Positions 1 to 7,603 of a stretch of 64,000 bases of DNA are shown one piece after another. The DNA is taken from NCBI RefSeq assembly GCF_018889955.1, contig NZ_CP076545.1:124001-188000 (forward strand), written 5' to 3'. A program made the translations under genes and the position numbers. The first letter of the stretch is position 1. Each line of letters starts with the position of its first letter. Source of the stretch: Collinsella sp. zg1085. GTDB lineage: Bacteria; Actinomycetota; Coriobacteriia; Coriobacteriales; Coriobacteriaceae. The notes under the pieces are model-generated. The model ran no database searches. It was not told the origin of the DNA and saw nothing but the letters and a program-made list of their open reading frames with translations.

Positions 1-1067
1 AACGCTTTCAGGCAGGAACATTCAAACTCTCCAGCCCACCCTATGGCTATATATGGAATGGTGAAAACCTCGTCATCGATCAGCACAAAGCACCCATTGT
101 TCAAGATATTTTCACGTGCGCTCTATCTGGGATGGGAAGCAGTGCCATTGCTAAAAAGCTCAATGATGAGAACGTTTCACCTTGCAGAGCTACTCTGTGG
201 AGAGACACTGCTATTCGCTCGATTTTGACCAACGAGAAATATACCGGTGATGTTATTTTCCAAAAAACCTATACCGATGATGCGTACAAACGCCACATAA
301 ACAGGGGAGAAAAACAACACTTCCGCATAGCCAATCATCACGAGGCAATCATCACCCATGAAACATTCGATAAAGTGCAGCAACTTCTAAGCATGAGAGC
401 GAGTCGAAAGAATAATCCTCAGGGTAGTACAAAGTGTCTTGTGCGCTACGCGTTCTCGGGAAAAATCTCGTGCGCAGTCTGCCATTCATCATTTAAGCGC
501 ATCACCTACGGCAAGCAAAATACTGCCGTGAAATGGGGATGCACAGGTCACATACGCAACAAAGATGCCTGCCCAATAAAAGCGATTCCCGATGAGTTAA
601 TCAAGGTTGCTTTTGTCACCATGTTCAACAAACTCATCTATGCACGCCAAAGAATCCTTACGCCCTATTTGGCTGATTTACACTCGAGTGCTCAGGACAA
701 CTCAGCGCAAAGAATCCATGTGCTTACCAGCTCAGTAACCAACCTAGAGCAAAGCCTTAGTGACTATCAAAACTTGCTAAACGAAGGTCTTATCGACCAA
801 GCCTTATACCTCAATGAATCAAGCATCGTAAAAAACAAAATACAAACCACCAAAATAGAAATCGAACACATCAAGCGAAGCATCGAAAACTCAGTCGACT
901 TTGTCAAAGCCACCCAAGAACTCCTCGATAAAACCAGTCGAGCAAACATGCAACAAAGCTTTGATGAGCAGCTGTTTTTAGACATCGTCAGGCGCGTGCT
1001 TATACAAAGCCAGCGCGAACTGGTCTTTGAGCTTAAATGCGGACTGTATTTACCAGAAAGGATATAA
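1..1067 (+). CDS. Large serine recombinase, 5'-truncated by the window edge
   Basis: Reading frame is open from base 3 (no start in the window) to a TAA at 1065-1067. What is visible is the DNA-binding part of a large serine integrase: a recombinase domain (PYGYIWNG near the edge; the typical ILTNEKYTGDVIFQKTY segment), a zinc-ribbon with CAVC and a second Cys pair (CTGH...DACP), and a Gln/Lys-rich coiled-coil tail. The catalytic Ser domain would lie to the left and cannot be checked. It is followed after 4 bp by a small recombinase-like gene and then a full recombinase, so the three form one operon. Such triplets of serine integrases are known from integrative conjugative elements of Gram-positives; assignment as the integration module of such an element is inference. 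Confidence 0.85.
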   Translation, partial: RFQAGTFKLSSPPYGYIWNGENLVIDQHKAPIVQDIFTCALSGMGSSAIAKKLNDENVSPCRATLWRDTAIRSILTNEKYTGDVIFQKTYTDDAYKRHINRGEKQHFRIANHHEAIITHETFDKVQQLLSMRASRKNNPQGSTKCLVRYAFSGKISCAVCHSSFKRITYGKQNTAVKWGCTGHIRNKDACPIKAIPDELIKVAFVTMFNKLIYARQRILTPYLADLHSSAQDNSAQRIHVLTSSVTNLEQSLSDYQNLLNEGLIDQALYLNESSIVKNKIQTTKIEIEHIKRSIENSVDFVKATQELLDKTSRANMQQSFDEQLFLDIVRRVLIQSQRELVFELKCGLYLPERI

Positions 1068-1071
1068 GAAC

Positions 1072-1500
1072 ATGACACACATACCCTTTGGCTACATCAT
1101 AGAAAACGGCCACATTAAAATCAACCCAGTACAGGCTAGGCAACTTAAAGTCTTGTTTGAAAGCTACCGCGACCACCAAGGTCTAAGCCGTGCCGGAAAA
1201 GATGCAGGCACCACCTTGACGCACTCGCGAATTGCACACATCCTAGCCGACCAACGCTACCTCGGTGATGACATCTATCCTGCCATCATTGACCAACAGC
1301 TCTTTGACGCAGTCCAAGACAAACGTCGTACCTTAAAAGAAAAACACCATATGACAGGATGGCGAAAAGAAAAGCACACACCCAATATTCCTACTGTGTT
1401 TCACATCCGTCCTGAGCAAGAACACTTTGAAAACATTCGAGAGCACGTCCAATACATCTACACGCTCATTGAAAGCGAGGACGAATCATGCCACAAGTAA
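1072..1500 (+). CDS. Small recombinase-domain protein lacking the catalytic domain
   Basis: 142 residues from the ATG at 1072, chosen because AAAGGATATAAGAAC just upstream supplies a ribosome site; a longer frame from 1027 would overlap the preceding gene without one. The sequence resembles only the central recombinase segment of large serine integrases: [12 protein letters not shown], then an [18 protein letters not shown] block like the SNEKYxGD segment of its neighbours. There is no resolvase domain and so no catalytic Ser. It overlaps the next recombinase by 13 bp, implying translational coupling. It may be a DNA-binding accessory subunit or directionality factor for the two large recombinases; that role is inference. 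Confidence 0.75.
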
Positions 1501-3053
1501 CCATCATCCCAGCAAAACCACAGCTGGGCAACCGCTCCAGCACAGAAGAAATCAAAAAGCTTCGCGTTGCCGCATACTGCCGTGTATCCACCGATACTGA
1601 AGAACAAGAAACAAGCTACGAAGCACAAGTCGAACACTACAAGTACTATATAAAAGCTCATCCAGAATGGACGTTTGCTGGCATCTATGCAGATGACGGA
1701 ATATCCGGCACAAACACCAAAAAGCGAGAAGAATTCAACCGCATGATTGAGGCGTGTATGGCAGGGGATATCGATATGATTATCACCAAATCCATCTCAC
1801 GCTTTGCCAGAAACACGCTGGACTGCCTCACATACATCCGTCAGCTCAAAGAACAAAACATTGCAGTCCTTTTTGAAAAAGAATCCATCAACACACTGGA
1901 CGCAAAAGGGGAGGTGCTCCTCACCATCATGGCAAGTCTTGCCCAGCAAGAAAGCCAATCGCTATCACAAAACGTCAAACTAGGTATTCAGTACCGCTAT
2001 CAGCAAGGCAAAGTTCAAATCAACCATAAGCACTTTCTGGGCTACACCAAAGACACAGACGGCAACCTCATCATTGACCCTGAGCAAGCACAAACCGTCA
2101 AACGCATCTTCAGAGAATTCCTTGATGGGAAAAGCCCTCACAGCATCGCTAAAGGCTTGCAAGCAGACGGTATTTCTAATGGTGCAGGAAAAACGAAATG
2201 GTGGGAATCAAATATCAGGCAAATCCTGAGCAACGAAAAATACATGGGAGATGCCCTCTTACAAAAAACAGTCACCACTGATTTCTTGACAAAAACACGG
2301 GTGAAAAACACCGGGCAAGCACAGCAATACTATGTTGAAAACAACCACGAAGCCATTATCCCCAAAGACATCTTCTTGCTCGCTCAAGAAGAACTTATCA
2401 AACGGTCCAAAAGCTACCTAAGCCCTGCAGGCATTCGGCGCAACTACTCAAGTCAACATCCGCTGTCACAGAAAGTGATATGTGCCGAGTGTGGCGACCT
2501 GTTCAGGCGAATCCATTGGAATAATCGTGGTAAGAAATCCGTGGTCTGGCGCTGTATCTCAAGACTTGAAGCAGCTCATGCACACATGGTCTGTCACGCA
2601 AGAACCGTCCACGAAGATGAACTTAAAGCAGTTTGCACAAAGGCATTGAACATGCTGCTTGCATCCAAACAAGACTTCATCGACCAGCTCACACAAAACC
2701 TCGAACATGCAATACAACCCACAACCGATATGAACGCTCTTGAGATTGATAAACAACTTAAAGAGCTCCAGCAACAGCTCATCGGAAAAGTCCAACAAAA
2801 ACAAGACTACGCTCACATCGCAGAACAAATACATGCCCTCATGGCACAAAAAGCAGACATCGAACAAGAACAAACCCGCACATCAGAACACCTCATGCGC
2901 ATGAATGAACTCAAATCGTTCATTCAAAAGCAAACGCTCGCTATCACCGACTTTGACGAAACCCTCGTGCGCAGACTCATCGAATCCATCCTCATAGAAG
3001 ATGAAGGCTATACCGTAGCCTTCAAATCAGGCACAAGCCTACACATCAACTAA
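1488..3053 (+). CDS. Large serine recombinase (site-specific integrase)
   Basis: 521 residues, complete. Resolvase domain about 25-165 with catalytic Ser34 in YCRVST and the SISRFARN helix at 102-109; recombinase domain about 185-300 ([24 protein letters not shown]); zinc ribbon around CAECGDLF with a distal Cys pair; C-terminal Gln-rich coiled coil. Length and order fit the TndX/TnpX-type large serine integrases that cut and rejoin DNA at short att sites. Last gene of the three-recombinase operon, reading towards the element end at 3429-3468, as expected for an integration module beside its att site. Followed by an intrinsic terminator at 3075-3108. Confidence 0.93.
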
Positions 3054-3074
3054 AACCAATCCCATAAAAACTCT

Positions 3075-3108
3075 AACGGTCGCTTCTAACACAGGATGCG
3101 ACCGTTTT
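3075..3108 (+). terminator. Intrinsic terminator of the recombinase operon
   Basis: Stem AACGGTCGC (3075-3083) pairs perfectly with GCGACCGTT (3098-3106), 14-nt loop, followed by TTTTCTT. It lies 22 bp after the stop codon of the full recombinase. Confidence 0.85.
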
Positions 3109-3150
3109 CTTATGCCAAAACATGGTAGATGACCTCGTGTTATCAACCCT

Positions 3151-3312
3151 ACACACTCAACACCAAAAAACATCTATCCTGAACACTCAACAAGCCAAAA
3201 CATCTATCTCGCACACTCAACACCGTGAAAACATCAATCCTAAACACTCAAGAGAGAAAAACATCCATCGTAAACACTCAACATGTCAAAACATCTATCC
3301 TGCACACTCGAG
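3151..3312. repeat. Six-unit 30-bp tandem repeat (iteron-like array)
   Basis: The word CACTCAA (CACTCGA in the last unit) recurs at 3154, 3184, 3214, 3245, 3275 and 3305, so the period is 30 bp (once 31). Each unit is CACTCAA, four to six variable bases, then AAAACATCTATCC-like sequence. Units abut without spacers. The array lies between the recombinase operon and the att copy at 3429. A 76-codon frame runs through it (3122-3352), but it is low-complexity and lacks a convincing ribosome site, so it is treated as DNA repeat. Role unknown; recombinase accessory sites, iterons or element-end binding sites are possible. Confidence 0.85.
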
Positions 3313-3428
3313 GTCACGCAATCCAAAATCGAGAGCCAAGAGCCTAAAGTAGACTTGTTCCCACAAACACATACTGTGCGCAAAAACGCTTCAAACCGCA
3401 ACCTGTAGAACAGGCATTTTAGCTGGAT

Positions 3429-3468
3429 ACTACCCCTTGCGTGACAGCAAACACACCGTCTCAACATG
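3429..3468. repeat. Attachment-site copy 1 (junction of two integrated elements)
   Basis: These 40 bp match 4618-4657 at 39 positions (the only difference is C3440 against T4629). The second copy is the real 3' end of rlmD, so this is a duplicated target site. Read on the minus strand it still encodes the last residues of the methyltransferase (VETVCLLS, then RKG instead of HKG, and a TAG stop). It marks the right end of the left-hand element and the left end of the 1.2-kb unit. Confidence 0.88.
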
Positions 3469-3574
3469 TGAAAGTTAGACTATTTTACGCATTTGCAGAT
3501 TTCCCCTGTTTTTATGGGTTTGCTGTCTATTTTTGTGCTTCCACACATTCATATTGCTGTCTCAGATAAGTAGG

Positions 3575-4501
3575 CTATTTTGAATTTTTAGAACTGTATT
3601 TCGTGCTCTTTCTCTGTCTTTCACCAGCTTCACTAACAACAATATTACTCCGTTTCGCTCGAGTCTCCTTTGCGGCACGAAACACGTCCTCCGTAATGAT
3701 TGGCGGGTGGCTGTCCTTCATCTCAAACATCTGTTCTCTGGTTACAGAATCTACCAACCGCACAGTTCCTATGTATTTCTCATTTGAGAGCAGTGTGTCA
3801 ACTGACCTCTTGCTCCAATGCTCTTTTCCCGTAGGAGAGGGAATCTTATGCTCAGCTAGCTTCTTTATAATCCCCAGTATGCTCGCACCATCAATATACC
3901 AACGGAATATATCTCGAACCACCTGAGCCTGCGTTGGCGATATGACAAGATTGCCATCATTGTCTTTCACATACCCATATAAACGCTTTCGGTAATTTCC
4001 AGAACTACCATTCAAGGCACGGTTCCTCAGTCCGATGCGAATATTCATGCTTCTGGTCTCGTTCTCAGCCTGCGCAAAAGATTCAGCAATAGAAATTAGC
4101 AGTTCGTCATCTACCACATCTGTGTCAAGTCCATCCTCATCAAATATGACGCGGACACCAGCTGCTTTTAGTTTCCGAAGAGCCTCAAGTGTATCAACCG
4201 TATCTCTTCCGAAGCGGTTAATGCTCTTAGTGAGAATAACCGAAATATGATGAGCCTGCGCCTCACGGATCATACGCTCAAATTCTCGACGCGGCGATTC
4301 TCCTTTTGCAGAAGCAATGTCTATAAATGTATCGGTCAGTTTCCATTGCTCAACATTGGCAACCGCCCTTGTAAGAGTAGCTATTTGAGCAGCAAGACTA
4401 TTCAGTTGGTTCTTTTCGCCGGTACTAACCCTGCAATAAATGCCAACATTCATACCTGGATCAGTTCTTTTGGCAGGGATATACCAAACTTTTGGATCCA
4501 A
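3575..4501 (-). CDS. Short serine recombinase of the 1.2-kb inner unit
   Basis: About 308 residues. A GTG at 4519 opens the frame, but AGAGGAGG lies between it and a TTG at 4501, so the TTG giving MDPKVWYIPAK is the better start. Resolvase domain with catalytic Ser26 in IYCRVST and SINRFGRDTVD; then a recombinase domain (LYGYVKDNDGN, LLSNEKYIGTVRL). It ends soon after, without the zinc ribbon and coiled coil of the large recombinases at 1-3053, so it is a short-form or truncated enzyme. It is the only gene between the two att copies. It resembles the full recombinase only in family motifs and is not a copy of it. The 3469-3574 and 4502-4617 flanks hold no gene. Confidence 0.9.
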   Translation of the reverse strand: MDPKVWYIPAKRTDPGMNVGIYCRVSTGEKNQLNSLAAQIATLTRAVANVEQWKLTDTFIDIASAKGESPRREFERMIREAQAHHISVILTKSINRFGRDTVDTLEALRKLKAAGVRVIFDEDGLDTDVVDDELLISIAESFAQAENETRSMNIRIGLRNRALNGSSGNYRKRLYGYVKDNDGNLVISPTQAQVVRDIFRWYIDGASILGIIKKLAEHKIPSPTGKEHWSKRSVDTLLSNEKYIGTVRLVDSVTREQMFEMKDSHPPIITEDVFRAAKETRAKRSNIVVSEAGERQRKSTKYSSKNSK

Positions 4502-4617
4502 TGTTCCGCCTCCTCTCACCTCAATTTAGCCTAATTGTATTGAAAAATAATGGAAATGTATAGTAGTCTATTTTTATTCATAGACACAAGATATATGGGT
4601 ATATTCACAGGTCGAGC

Positions 4618-4657
4618 ACTACCCCTTGTGTGACAGCAAACACACCGTCTCAACATG
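4618..4657. repeat. Attachment-site copy 2 at the chromosomal rlmD 3' end
   Basis: Partner of 3429-3468 with one mismatch. It contains the stop codon and last twelve codons of rlmD on the minus strand, so integration here restores an intact gene end. rumA/rlmD 3' ends are known insertion sites for serine-recombinase elements in other Gram-positive bacteria (established for several streptococcal ICEs); use of that site here is read from the duplicated sequence. Confidence 0.88.
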
Positions 4658-5863
4658 GGCGGTATGGGGGAACATATCAACTGGTGTGAGTCGGGTGAGT
4701 TGATAACCTGCCTTGCCAAGAAGCGTGAGGTCACGAACCTGTGTTGCGGGATTGCAGCTTATATATACTATGCGTTTTGGCGCAAGCTCAGCCGCCACCG
4801 ATAAAAACTCAGGCGTTGACCCAGCGCGCGGCGGATCCATTACGAGTACATCGATATGCCGTTTTTGCTCGGCAAGGCGCTGGATATAGTCAGTTGCGTC
4901 CTCAGCGATAAAGGTTGCACAGTTATCAAGTTGGTTGAGCTGAGCATTACGTGCTGCATCGGCTATGCCTGATGGATTGCGTTCGACACCAAGCAGTTGT
5001 ACGTCAATACCAAGCTCTCGTGCTGCATGAGCTGCGCATAAACCAATGGTACCGCTGCCGCAGTAGGCATCAAGAAGCGTATCACCTGCATCAAGTGACA
5101 TCCCGTCAATGGCAAGGCGATAGAGCACTTCCGTTTGTTTAGGATTGACTTGGTAAAAGGCTCCGGGAGAAATTTCAAACGTGCAGCCAAGAAGCTTGTC
5201 ATGCATGCAAGGTTGTCCCCATACAAGATGCGTTTCGGCACCAAGAATTGCATTGGTAGTGCGCCCGTTGATGTTTTGCGCAATACACGTAATACGCGGA
5301 TTATGTGCGGCGATTTGCTTGATGAGCTCATTAAAGCGTGGGATATCGCGATGAGCGGTAACGAGTGTAAGGAGCCCTTCGTTTGTTTGCCAGCCGAGAC
5401 GCAAAATGGCGTAACGCAGCTGACCACGCTGACGATCTTCATCATAGGCAGGGATGTTGAGTTTTTCTGCGATGCGCGCAACACTGTTGAGTATAGACCG
5501 CGCCTCGGGAGCCTCGACTACACAGTCAGGTGTTTCGATTATGTGATGACTTCCACGTGCGAAAAGTCCTGCTTGATAGCCGCCGTGAGCGTTTGGAGCA
5601 AACGGGGTAGCAGCTTTATAACGAAAGTGCAGTGGACGTGCGATGCTGTGTGGCTGACCAGCTTGTCCACCCATGCCACGAATTGCGTCAACAGTAATAT
5701 CCCAGTTGAACTCTTTGAGCAGAGGTTCAAAGAGCGTCTCTATAGCACGCTGCTTTCGATTGAGTTGCTTGAGGTAGGGGAGACCCAGCAGCTCGCAGCC
5801 ACCGCAGCTGTGCATGATAGGGCAGGGTGCACCGGTGTCGGATTTGTTGCGTCGTGTAGCCAT
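4619..5863 (-). CDS. rlmD: 23S rRNA (uracil-C5)-methyltransferase, RlmD/RumA type
   Basis: 414 residues from the ATG at 5863 (MATRRNKSD). An upstream in-frame ATG at 6052 exists, but the extra 63 residues come from repeat element sequence, so the shorter form is preferred. Iron-sulfur motif CPIMHSCGGC near the N-terminus with a fourth Cys in TPDC; SAM fold with DAYCGSGTIGL, DPPRAG, the catalytic Cys in ISCNP, and the general-base Glu in HVETV. It methylates C5 of a uridine in 23S rRNA. No Shine-Dalgarno precedes the ATG, while TATAAT ends 6 bp before it, so a leaderless mRNA is likely. Its 3' end is the integration site of the elements on its left. Confidence 0.93.
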   Translation of the reverse strand: MATRRNKSDTGAPCPIMHSCGGCELLGLPYLKQLNRKQRAIETLFEPLLKEFNWDITVDAIRGMGGQAGQPHSIARPLHFRYKAATPFAPNAHGGYQAGLFARGSHHIIETPDCVVEAPEARSILNSVARIAEKLNIPAYDEDRQRGQLRYAILRLGWQTNEGLLTLVTAHRDIPRFNELIKQIAAHNPRITCIAQNINGRTTNAILGAETHLVWGQPCMHDKLLGCTFEISPGAFYQVNPKQTEVLYRLAIDGMSLDAGDTLLDAYCGSGTIGLCAAHAARELGIDVQLLGVERNPSGIADAARNAQLNQLDNCATFIAEDATDYIQRLAEQKRHIDVLVMDPPRAGSTPEFLSVAAELAPKRIVYISCNPATQVRDLTLLGKAGYQLTRLTPVDMFPHTAHVETVCLLSHKG

Positions 5864-5869
5864 GGGGTC

Positions 5870-5875
5870 ATTATA
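5870..5875 (-). promoter_or_regulatory. -10 box of rlmD, probable leaderless start
   Basis: TATAAT on the minus strand, 6 bp before the ATG at 5863, so transcription would begin at or next to the start codon. The -35 is weak (nothing like TTGACA at 16-18 bp). The absence of a ribosome site supports the leaderless reading. Confidence 0.45.
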
Positions 5876-5929
5876 GCGGGGATGCGCTTGCTTATATGGT
5901 TGCTTTTCTTGGTGTTTGTTCTTTATGTA

Positions 5930-7603
5930 AGAGACAGGCTTTAGGAGGGGCTGTGTTTTTCGAGAGTTTTTGGGAACATATGCGTCACAAAACTGCTCGC
6001 TTCTCAATTCAGATGAGACCAAGGTATTGCCTTCCCTGAATGTGCTGCGCAAAATTCTCCGAACGCAACACCTTGGTTTTACGTCTGCCTTTCGTGTTTA
6101 AACAAACTGCATTTCAATAAAGCTGTGTCCCGCGAACACTTCCCTGAAAAAGCAACTTGTTTTTCTCTTGTGCGGACAGATTTCAAAACACCGCCAACTT
6201 GAATGAGCTGTTTTGACAGAAACGGGCAATGTGGCAGTAAAACCTGACAGAAACAGGCAATGTGGCAATAAACCCCCTGTAGTACAAAAAACTGCACTTC
6301 ATCTACCTGCAGGTTTATAAAACAATGAATAACCCACGGGGTTCTACACTACCAAATTGCCCGTTTCTGTCAAAAGAGGTTTGGCTAATGCCACTGTCTT
6401 CCTGTGAGTTGGCAAAAAAGACTAATTTGACGCAAAAATCTGTCATTTTTGACCAATTTGGCATAAAGAGACAGTTGTTGCTTTACGCGTAGCTCTTCTA
6501 CCTGCGGCTTTGTATGACAAATACTAACCCGCTGGGTTATAGAGAGTACTTTTTTGTCATTTTTGCCAAAGCGACAGGTGTAACTTATTGATGTAATGGT
6601 GGTAGTAGTTTGTGTTTAGTGCATTAGCTGTACTACTGCGTAACGTGCCGTAATGAATTGCAGTGTTAGAAATACCTTGTAATAGCTTTACGAAATTGCG
6701 AAAACTCAGGGCTACTGGGAAGCAAAACGCTCTAGTGTACGAATTTTTGCTAGTAGCCCGAGTATAGGGGGTCTGTACAAAGAAACTTTTCAGCATTTCC
6801 GCAGGAAGGATGCTTTAGCTTAGTAGAGTGTACTTGACCCTAGTCAAGAAAATCGTACATTAGATGGATTTCCTCTTGGGGCGTTGATGTAATGCAGCTC
6901 ATATCACTTATTAGCTAAAAAAACACTGCAACAGAGGTAGTTTGAGCAGTCAGACCAAGGTATTGCGTTCGGAGAATTCTGCGTAGCACATTCGTAGAAC
7001 GCAATACCTTGTCTCGTGCACTAACTCTGTAAAAGCTAAGCTCACGGGCAGGCAAAAGCTTAACGGTAGAAAAGAGCTTCAACCCAATCCCATTTCATCC
7101 CATAAGCGCTGCTTGTGCATGGCGGGGTGTGGGAGTGAGCTGATTGCTGTTTGTACATTTGGTATTTACTGTAAGAAAGGGGACGAATGATTGTGCTCGG
7201 AGAATTCTGCGTAGCACATTCGGAGAGCGCAATCATTCGTTCAGTTGAGGTGGAGCTACAGTACAAAGCAGGTGAGATAGAGCTACAACATAAGGGTGGC
7301 ATAGCTTTTCTAAGGGAACTTTCGCGAAGCGCAGTTCCCGTGAAAAGACTATGCCACCCCATAGGTTTACGACTCATTCATCACATAGACGAGGTGAAAG
7401 ACTATGCCACCTCGTAAGCTTGCAATTCATTCGCCCAGCTTAGACGACATGAAAAGTCTCTACCATTCCATACGCTTGCGACTCATTCGTCCAACTTAGA
7501 CGGTGTGAAAAGCCTCTGCCATCAACGATGCTAAGAGCGAAACAAAGCCACCAACCACAGCTCACCCCACACCCCGCCTTCAGGAAGCAAGCAGCCGCTT
7601 ATA
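5930..7603. repeat. Long non-coding palindromic element, copy A (left arm missing)
   Basis: Core with hairpins H3 at 6019-6076 and 6955-7012, then a right arm with H2 at 7183-7240, H1 at 7294-7359, and the outer repeat (AGCTCACCCCACACCCCGCC) ending at about 7603. H1 is GGGTGGCATAG...CTATGCCACCC; H2 is ACGAATGATTG...CAATCATTCGT; H3 is CCAAGGTATTG...CAATACCTTGG. The core also holds TAACCCGCTGGGTTA, ACCTGCAGGT, CTTGACCCTAGTCAAG and repeated TGACAGAAACGGGCAA motifs in both orientations. 5996-6898 reads identical to 36845-37747 of copy B; left of 5996 the two remain alignable but diverge, and the H2/H1 left arm is absent. The right end overlaps the TAA of pepT. No credible gene inside; small frames here are explained by the repeats. 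Confidence 0.9.

Follow-up and report, generated by a model that had tools for sequence, protein, structure and literature searches.

Two integrative elements stacked behind rlmD on a common att core in Collinsella sp. zg1085, one of them a candidate minimal mobile unit

Stacking of mobile elements at the 3' end of rumA (rlmD) is already known. In streptococci, ICEs and IMEs with a single serine integrase insert at this gene, provide it with a new C-terminus, and undergo accretion (PMC4701971, PMC5357655); ICEs with recombinase triplets have been described as targeting mutT, traG, or hsdM (PMC4701971). The rumA target is also used by prophages, including phi-SsuFJNP3_rum, Erysipelothrix phages of the phiEr670 type (PMC12785378), and the rumA prophages of Streptococcus suis (PMC7168690). 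A serine recombinase, a methyltransferase 3' end, direct repeats, remnants, and successive insertions likewise characterize SCC/ECC (ccr at rlmH, PMC6222049), and many recombinases are likewise piled at the rumA 3' end in the nested recombinase island of Dehalobacter (PMC11578063).

Here, we describe the 3' end of rlmD in the genome of Collinsella sp. zg1085 (G000), which lies in a 64,000-nucleotide stretch of contig C1 that we refer to as the window (positions to its left are negative, or given as C1 coordinates). In our reading, which we hold with a probability of roughly 0.8, two integrative elements with a common att core are stacked at rlmD, and the one next to the gene (element 2) is a minimal mobile unit. 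Element 2 resembles the streptococcal elements in its target gene, its serine recombinase, and the new C-terminus given to rumA, but is only 1.2 kb long, as opposed to means of 41 kb for the ICEs and 10 kb for the IMEs (PMC4701971, PMC5357655); moreover, the streptococcal elements have direct repeats of 2-21 bp and an att site inside the integrase gene, whereas the second att of element 2 lies 109 bp behind the recombinase gene. Element 1 shares its target with the rum/rlmD prophages but contains no phage genes. The SCC/ECC family, with its ccrAB recombinases, rlmH target, core TATCATAA, and 32-kb ECC element (PMC6222049), is set apart by its much greater size and by target and core, which here are rlmD and CAYGTTGAG. 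Finally, single elements could not be delimited in the Dehalobacter island (PMC11578063), whereas units running from att to att are delimited here. Coordinates are collected in Table 1.

Table 1. Features of the stacked elements at rlmD. Positions are those of the window unless marked C1.
Feature	Position	Strand	Basis or remark
AbiEi_4 antitoxin-like gene	C1:122397-122990	-	Upstream, outside window
SHOCT_2-like small ORF	C1:123276-123485		Upstream, outside window
First triplet recombinase, 518 aa	1..1067	+	PF07508 + PF13408 (window part); start C1:123511, outside window
Middle triplet protein, 142 aa, no catalytic domain	1072..1500	+	Homologs in same slot: L107, L108, L109, L060, L095
Third triplet recombinase, 521 aa	1488..3053	+	PF00239, PF07508, PF13408
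att copy 1, junction of small unit and triplet element	3429..3468	-	Repeat, core scan, DNA alignment
Box D (TAGNCTA)	3476..3482		Adjoins att core
Box C (TAGNCTA)	3571..3577		At recombinase stop codon
Compact serine recombinase, ~308 aa	3575..4501	-	Domain search
Box B (TAGNCTA), promoter-proximal	4527..4533		37 bp from box A
Box A (TAGNCTA)	4564..4570		
att copy 2, rlmD 3' end, codons HVETVCLLSHKG + stop	4618..4657	-	
rlmD (rumA), 23S rRNA (uracil-1939-C5)-methyltransferase, target gene	4619..5863	-	PF05958

The initial annotation had described a 40-bp direct repeat with one mismatch covering the end of rlmD, and this is borne out by comparison within the window: the two copies agree at 39 of 40 bases, and the right copy comprises the final 12 codons of rlmD and its stop codon (4619-4621, minus strand). 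It had also predicted a third copy to the left of the window. A search of the 1.72-Mb genome for the 40-bp repeat (28-base core, up to 3 mismatches allowed) returned exactly the two known copies and no other, but a shorter match does lie where the third had been expected. Scanning 188 kb on both strands with the query CACATGTTGAGACG yielded three att cores of the form CACAT[G/C]TTGAGACG as the only sites matching at 13/14 or better, and the third of these, at C1:122323-122336 (window -1677 to -1664, 13/14), is situated 1.7 kb left of the window. Because this site has just the 14-bp core in common with the others, the 40-bp length of the repeat is not that of the recombination core; short shared sequences are usual for serine recombinases, with repeats of 2-21 bp in rumA ICEs and 2-8 bp in triplet ICEs (PMC4701971).

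A further 22 species of the genus have an rlmD ortholog, and in 14 of these a convergent PHP gene follows 33-103 bp behind rlmD, with aminotransferase, ftsH, hpt, and tilS genes beyond it in the members examined at length. The ends of PHP and rlmD in G000 fall at C1:121623 and C1:128619, respectively; given the short spacing in the 14 relatives, which provide the empty site for comparison and lack this DNA, G000 has gained an insert of about 7 kb. Three att cores, two segments between them, and an empty site in relatives together make up a tandem accretion. Unlike DNA is also found behind rlmD in two further species of the genus (G001 and G017), and this genus may thus have a hot spot at the rlmD end. 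In G001 (locus L045, ~3560-3660), the gene ends in an element-type tail, VVLMSRVKD, followed by low-GC DNA with GNAT-like ORFs; this insertion is an independent event at the same rlmD site. Across rlmD-linked loci, the reading of rlmD crosses the core into such element-type tails, mostly V[VA]LMS, and G000 likewise has an insertion at the rumA 3' end with an exchanged rumA tail. At the third core, an rlmD-like reading runs on as HLETIALMPQL and a stop; we dropped the view that this tail is certainly native, as element tails look similar to it. Between PHP and this site lies a RelB/DinJ-YafQ toxin-antitoxin pair (C1:121743-122302, window -2257 to -1698), the stop codon of which overlaps the convergent rlmD-like tail. 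Since that tail also resembles element tails, the pair could possibly be a third, older insertion. To the right of rlmD, intergenic inverted repeats occupy window 6020-7233 (a 63-nt pair at 6020-6082/6949-7011, 86%, and one more copy at 7190-7233) that may represent a small repeat family.

Element 1 is bounded by the third core and att copy 1 (~C1:122320-127440, ~5.1 kb) and contains the AbiEi-like gene, the SHOCT-like ORF, and the serine recombinase triplet that had been placed left of copy 1 and is indeed present there. The accompanying suggestion of a larger element on that side did not hold up, as the segment is neither large nor conjugative: no conjugation or mobilisation genes were seen among its ORFs, phage structural and lysis genes are absent from the 5.1 kb, and a conjugative element to the left was rejected because the chromosomal genes tilS-hpt-ftsH-aminotransferase-PHP stand within a few kb. 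The third triplet recombinase is 58% identical to a protein of Streptococcus phage phi-SsuFJNP3_rum, 57% to one of Erysipelothrix phage phi1605, and 63% to its counterpart in a prophage triplet of another bacterium (G347). The triplet is akin to those of rum phages, and we take element 1, as part of our best explanation, to derive by reduction from an rlmD prophage element of the triplet type. The G347 triplet stands beside holin and GH25-like ORFs (L116-L118, L107; G347 C1 ~2778000-2822000) and closes a prophage-like region stacked behind a 1.2-kb unit of that genome. Element 1 of G000 also carries 5.2 copies of a 30-bp tandem repeat (window 3142..3309), each weakly att-like; similar 29-30 bp repeats (ACATCTA.CC.GA.CACTC) occur near att in L111 (6947-7023 and 8023-8099) and L114 (6046-6116). 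These arrays resemble degenerate att in the same phase (17 of 3000 shuffles were equally good for G000; 17, 20, 28, and 1 of 3000 over all), and on our att scale, whose cut-off of 22 was reached nowhere in 400 kb of random sequence, the G000 repeats score 20-22.

Element 2 (window 3429-4657) measures 1189 bp core to core, leaving no room for conjugation or mobilisation genes. The single short serine recombinase that had been noted between the repeat copies is confirmed, with Resolvase and Recombinase domains; its ORF has 314 codons, and a likely TTG start at 4501, behind AGGAGG, gives the 308-aa protein. A search for close relatives among 296 genomes of the same class turned up G000 alone. Farther afield, the recombinase is 90% identical to a G347 protein and 86% identical to one on JAEEJO010000013.1 (a Clostridiales MAG), both encoded directly behind rlmD. 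The DNA of element 2 aligns with the G347 unit from core to core (1189 vs 1200 bp, 81%) and poorly outside, and the two hosts are distant (16S 81.5%, rlmD 35%). Because the parts diverge so unequally (G000 and G347 agree at 90% in the small recombinase, and at 63% and 45% in the third and first recombinases of the triplet), the unit has moved apart from both triplet and host. We regard the structure of the locus, the discreteness of the 1.2-kb unit, and its horizontal movement as shown.

The recombinase has no domains beyond the two named above, and the zinc ribbon (PF13408) that follows the recombinase domain in large serine integrases was absent from all 11 family members checked by domain search. 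In a tree of sequences sampled by similarity to the compact clade, the compact recombinases cluster as a single clade to which neither triplet nor single integrases belong (support 100/100), and the serine-recombinase motif is invariant across 11 aligned members. A structure model of medium quality (pLDDT 71) has serine recombinases and integrases as its nearest solved relatives. Around the gene, the motif TAGNCTA occurs four times in 1189 bp, against 0.11 expected (P 5e-6) and 17 occurrences in 188 kb. The 37-bp spacing of boxes A and B recurs in seven units (element 2, L107, L012, L108, L109, L110, and L060), and a box beside the second (right) att core is found in most family members. The boxes are probably recombinase binding sites, serving as a putative operator and accessory site.

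Scanning Clostridia, the phylum, and viral contigs for the compact recombinase gave 33 matches, of which, at the att score cut-off of 22, 15 are flanked by att on both sides and another 15 on one side (several at contig ends), while 3 have none; in viral contigs, the single-protein scan gave 0 matches and an alignment scan 11. Some 30 relatives are 1.2 to ~4 kb long, each with one compact recombinase of ~310 aa and usually 0-2 cargo genes, which by eye look like GNAT, XRE regulator, metallophosphoesterase, ABC transporter, and other genes. Whether at rlmD, in an array (three units in series in G452), or within a phage integrase gene, they adjoin the same att sequence; in Javan105, L124, and G417, the 3' end of a larger integrase gene provides the att that the unit occupies. 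A 2.6-kb unit is essentially unchanged between G452, where it lies at rlmD, and viral contig L123, where it lies elsewhere: the alignment has 2643 matches and one 46-base gap over 2692 columns, identity jumps from ~25% to 100% at CATGTTGAG, and the other end falls at TTTCA[C/T]GTTGAG. In a second and less close pair, Javan105 and L124, the unit is 93% identical and the preceding DNA unrelated. On L123, an IMG/VR contig, positions 1-7187 just before the inserted unit contain genes that by eye look defence-related (PglZ-like and neighbours).

We propose that the compact recombinase would recombine CAYGTTGAG, the core carried by a circular form of the element, with the same codons of rlmD (H-V-E). 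The right arm would give rlmD a new in-frame C-terminus and stop, and since this arm encodes a short replacement tail, the gene would stay whole. The new rlmD end would again be usable as an att site, so that further elements could enter and build up a stack. We infer that the compact recombinase alone performs this reaction and remains active, although help from the triplet is possible, given that the unit adjoins an inverted triplet in G000, G347, G544, and G540. The initial annotation had a second element entering the att site left by a first; tandem accretion at rlmD stands, but the order cannot be read from the sequence, because triplet-first and small-unit-first insertion yield the same final structure. 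We also dropped an order based on tails, since the positions at which copy 2 departs from the family tail (L012, L107, L108) are those at which it matches copy 1, a pattern that indicates homogenisation between neighbours and not an order. The 26 bp behind the core, nearly identical in the two G000 copies and unlike other members, would call for a further event, for example gene conversion, and are likewise best read as homogenised.

A broader proposal, which we entertain only tentatively, is that such units are widespread autonomous integrative elements of 1.2-4 kb, roughly as large as insertion sequences, whose compact recombinase lacks the zinc-ribbon/coiled-coil part and has its direction set by the TAGNCTA boxes instead, and which parasitize the att of rlmD and of larger phages and ICEs. 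The missing part controls direction in large serine integrases, which weakens the case for autonomy. The unit might instead be a CIME-like passenger of neighbouring rlmD prophage or ICE integrases, its own recombinase being accessory. A common core, the lodging of units in att sites that belong to larger integrase genes (Javan105, L124, G417), and the want of transfer functions would all fit, but the recombinase gene is intact, with its motif invariant in the 11 aligned members, and has conserved upstream boxes of its own, such that we consider this account unlikely.

Less probable still is that the 1.2-kb unit is a non-mobile leftover of a larger, deleted element, with an integrase gene stranded between attL and attR. 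The unit lacks cargo, recombinases are truncated or decayed in related stacks (L143, L149, L113), and S. suis rum prophages also have recombinase remnants behind rum; however, independent deletions would hardly give like ends in two distant bacteria, where the layout is the same (second core 109 bp behind the recombinase, total length 1189/1200 bp), and an intact 2.6-kb unit occurs in two contexts. That unit and triplet form a single composite that carries an internal att and invariably moves as a whole would agree with the order rlmD-unit-inverted triplet in G000, G347, and G544 (in G540 the unit is farther from rlmD) and with the co-occurrence of both recombinase kinds in Javan105 and Gardnerella phage AB1, yet it is very improbable in view of the unequal divergence (90% vs 63% and 45%), the G452 array with no triplet within the 19 kb examined, and the unit's own att at both sides. 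Chance or local duplication as the origin of the repeat has nothing in its favour beyond both copies being rlmD sequence, and can be practically dismissed given the empty-site comparison, the extra genes between the sites, and the conservation of att in unrelated hosts.

Within the open-access literature searched, an incomplete subset that gives weak evidence of novelty, we found no description of the compact unit and no match for a minimal single-gene serine element, and searches for a rumA satellite or hitchhiker returned mainly the known ICE/IME papers. If our reading of two stacked elements is correct, element 2 would be an integrative element of very small size, site-specific and equipped with a serine recombinase, that has crossed between distant bacteria. 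The unit would offer a clean att consensus together with a compact enzyme that targets conserved codons of rlmD, and nested rumA/rlmD recombinase islands could be resolved into single units running from att to att, a step beyond the reach of earlier island work (PMC11578063).
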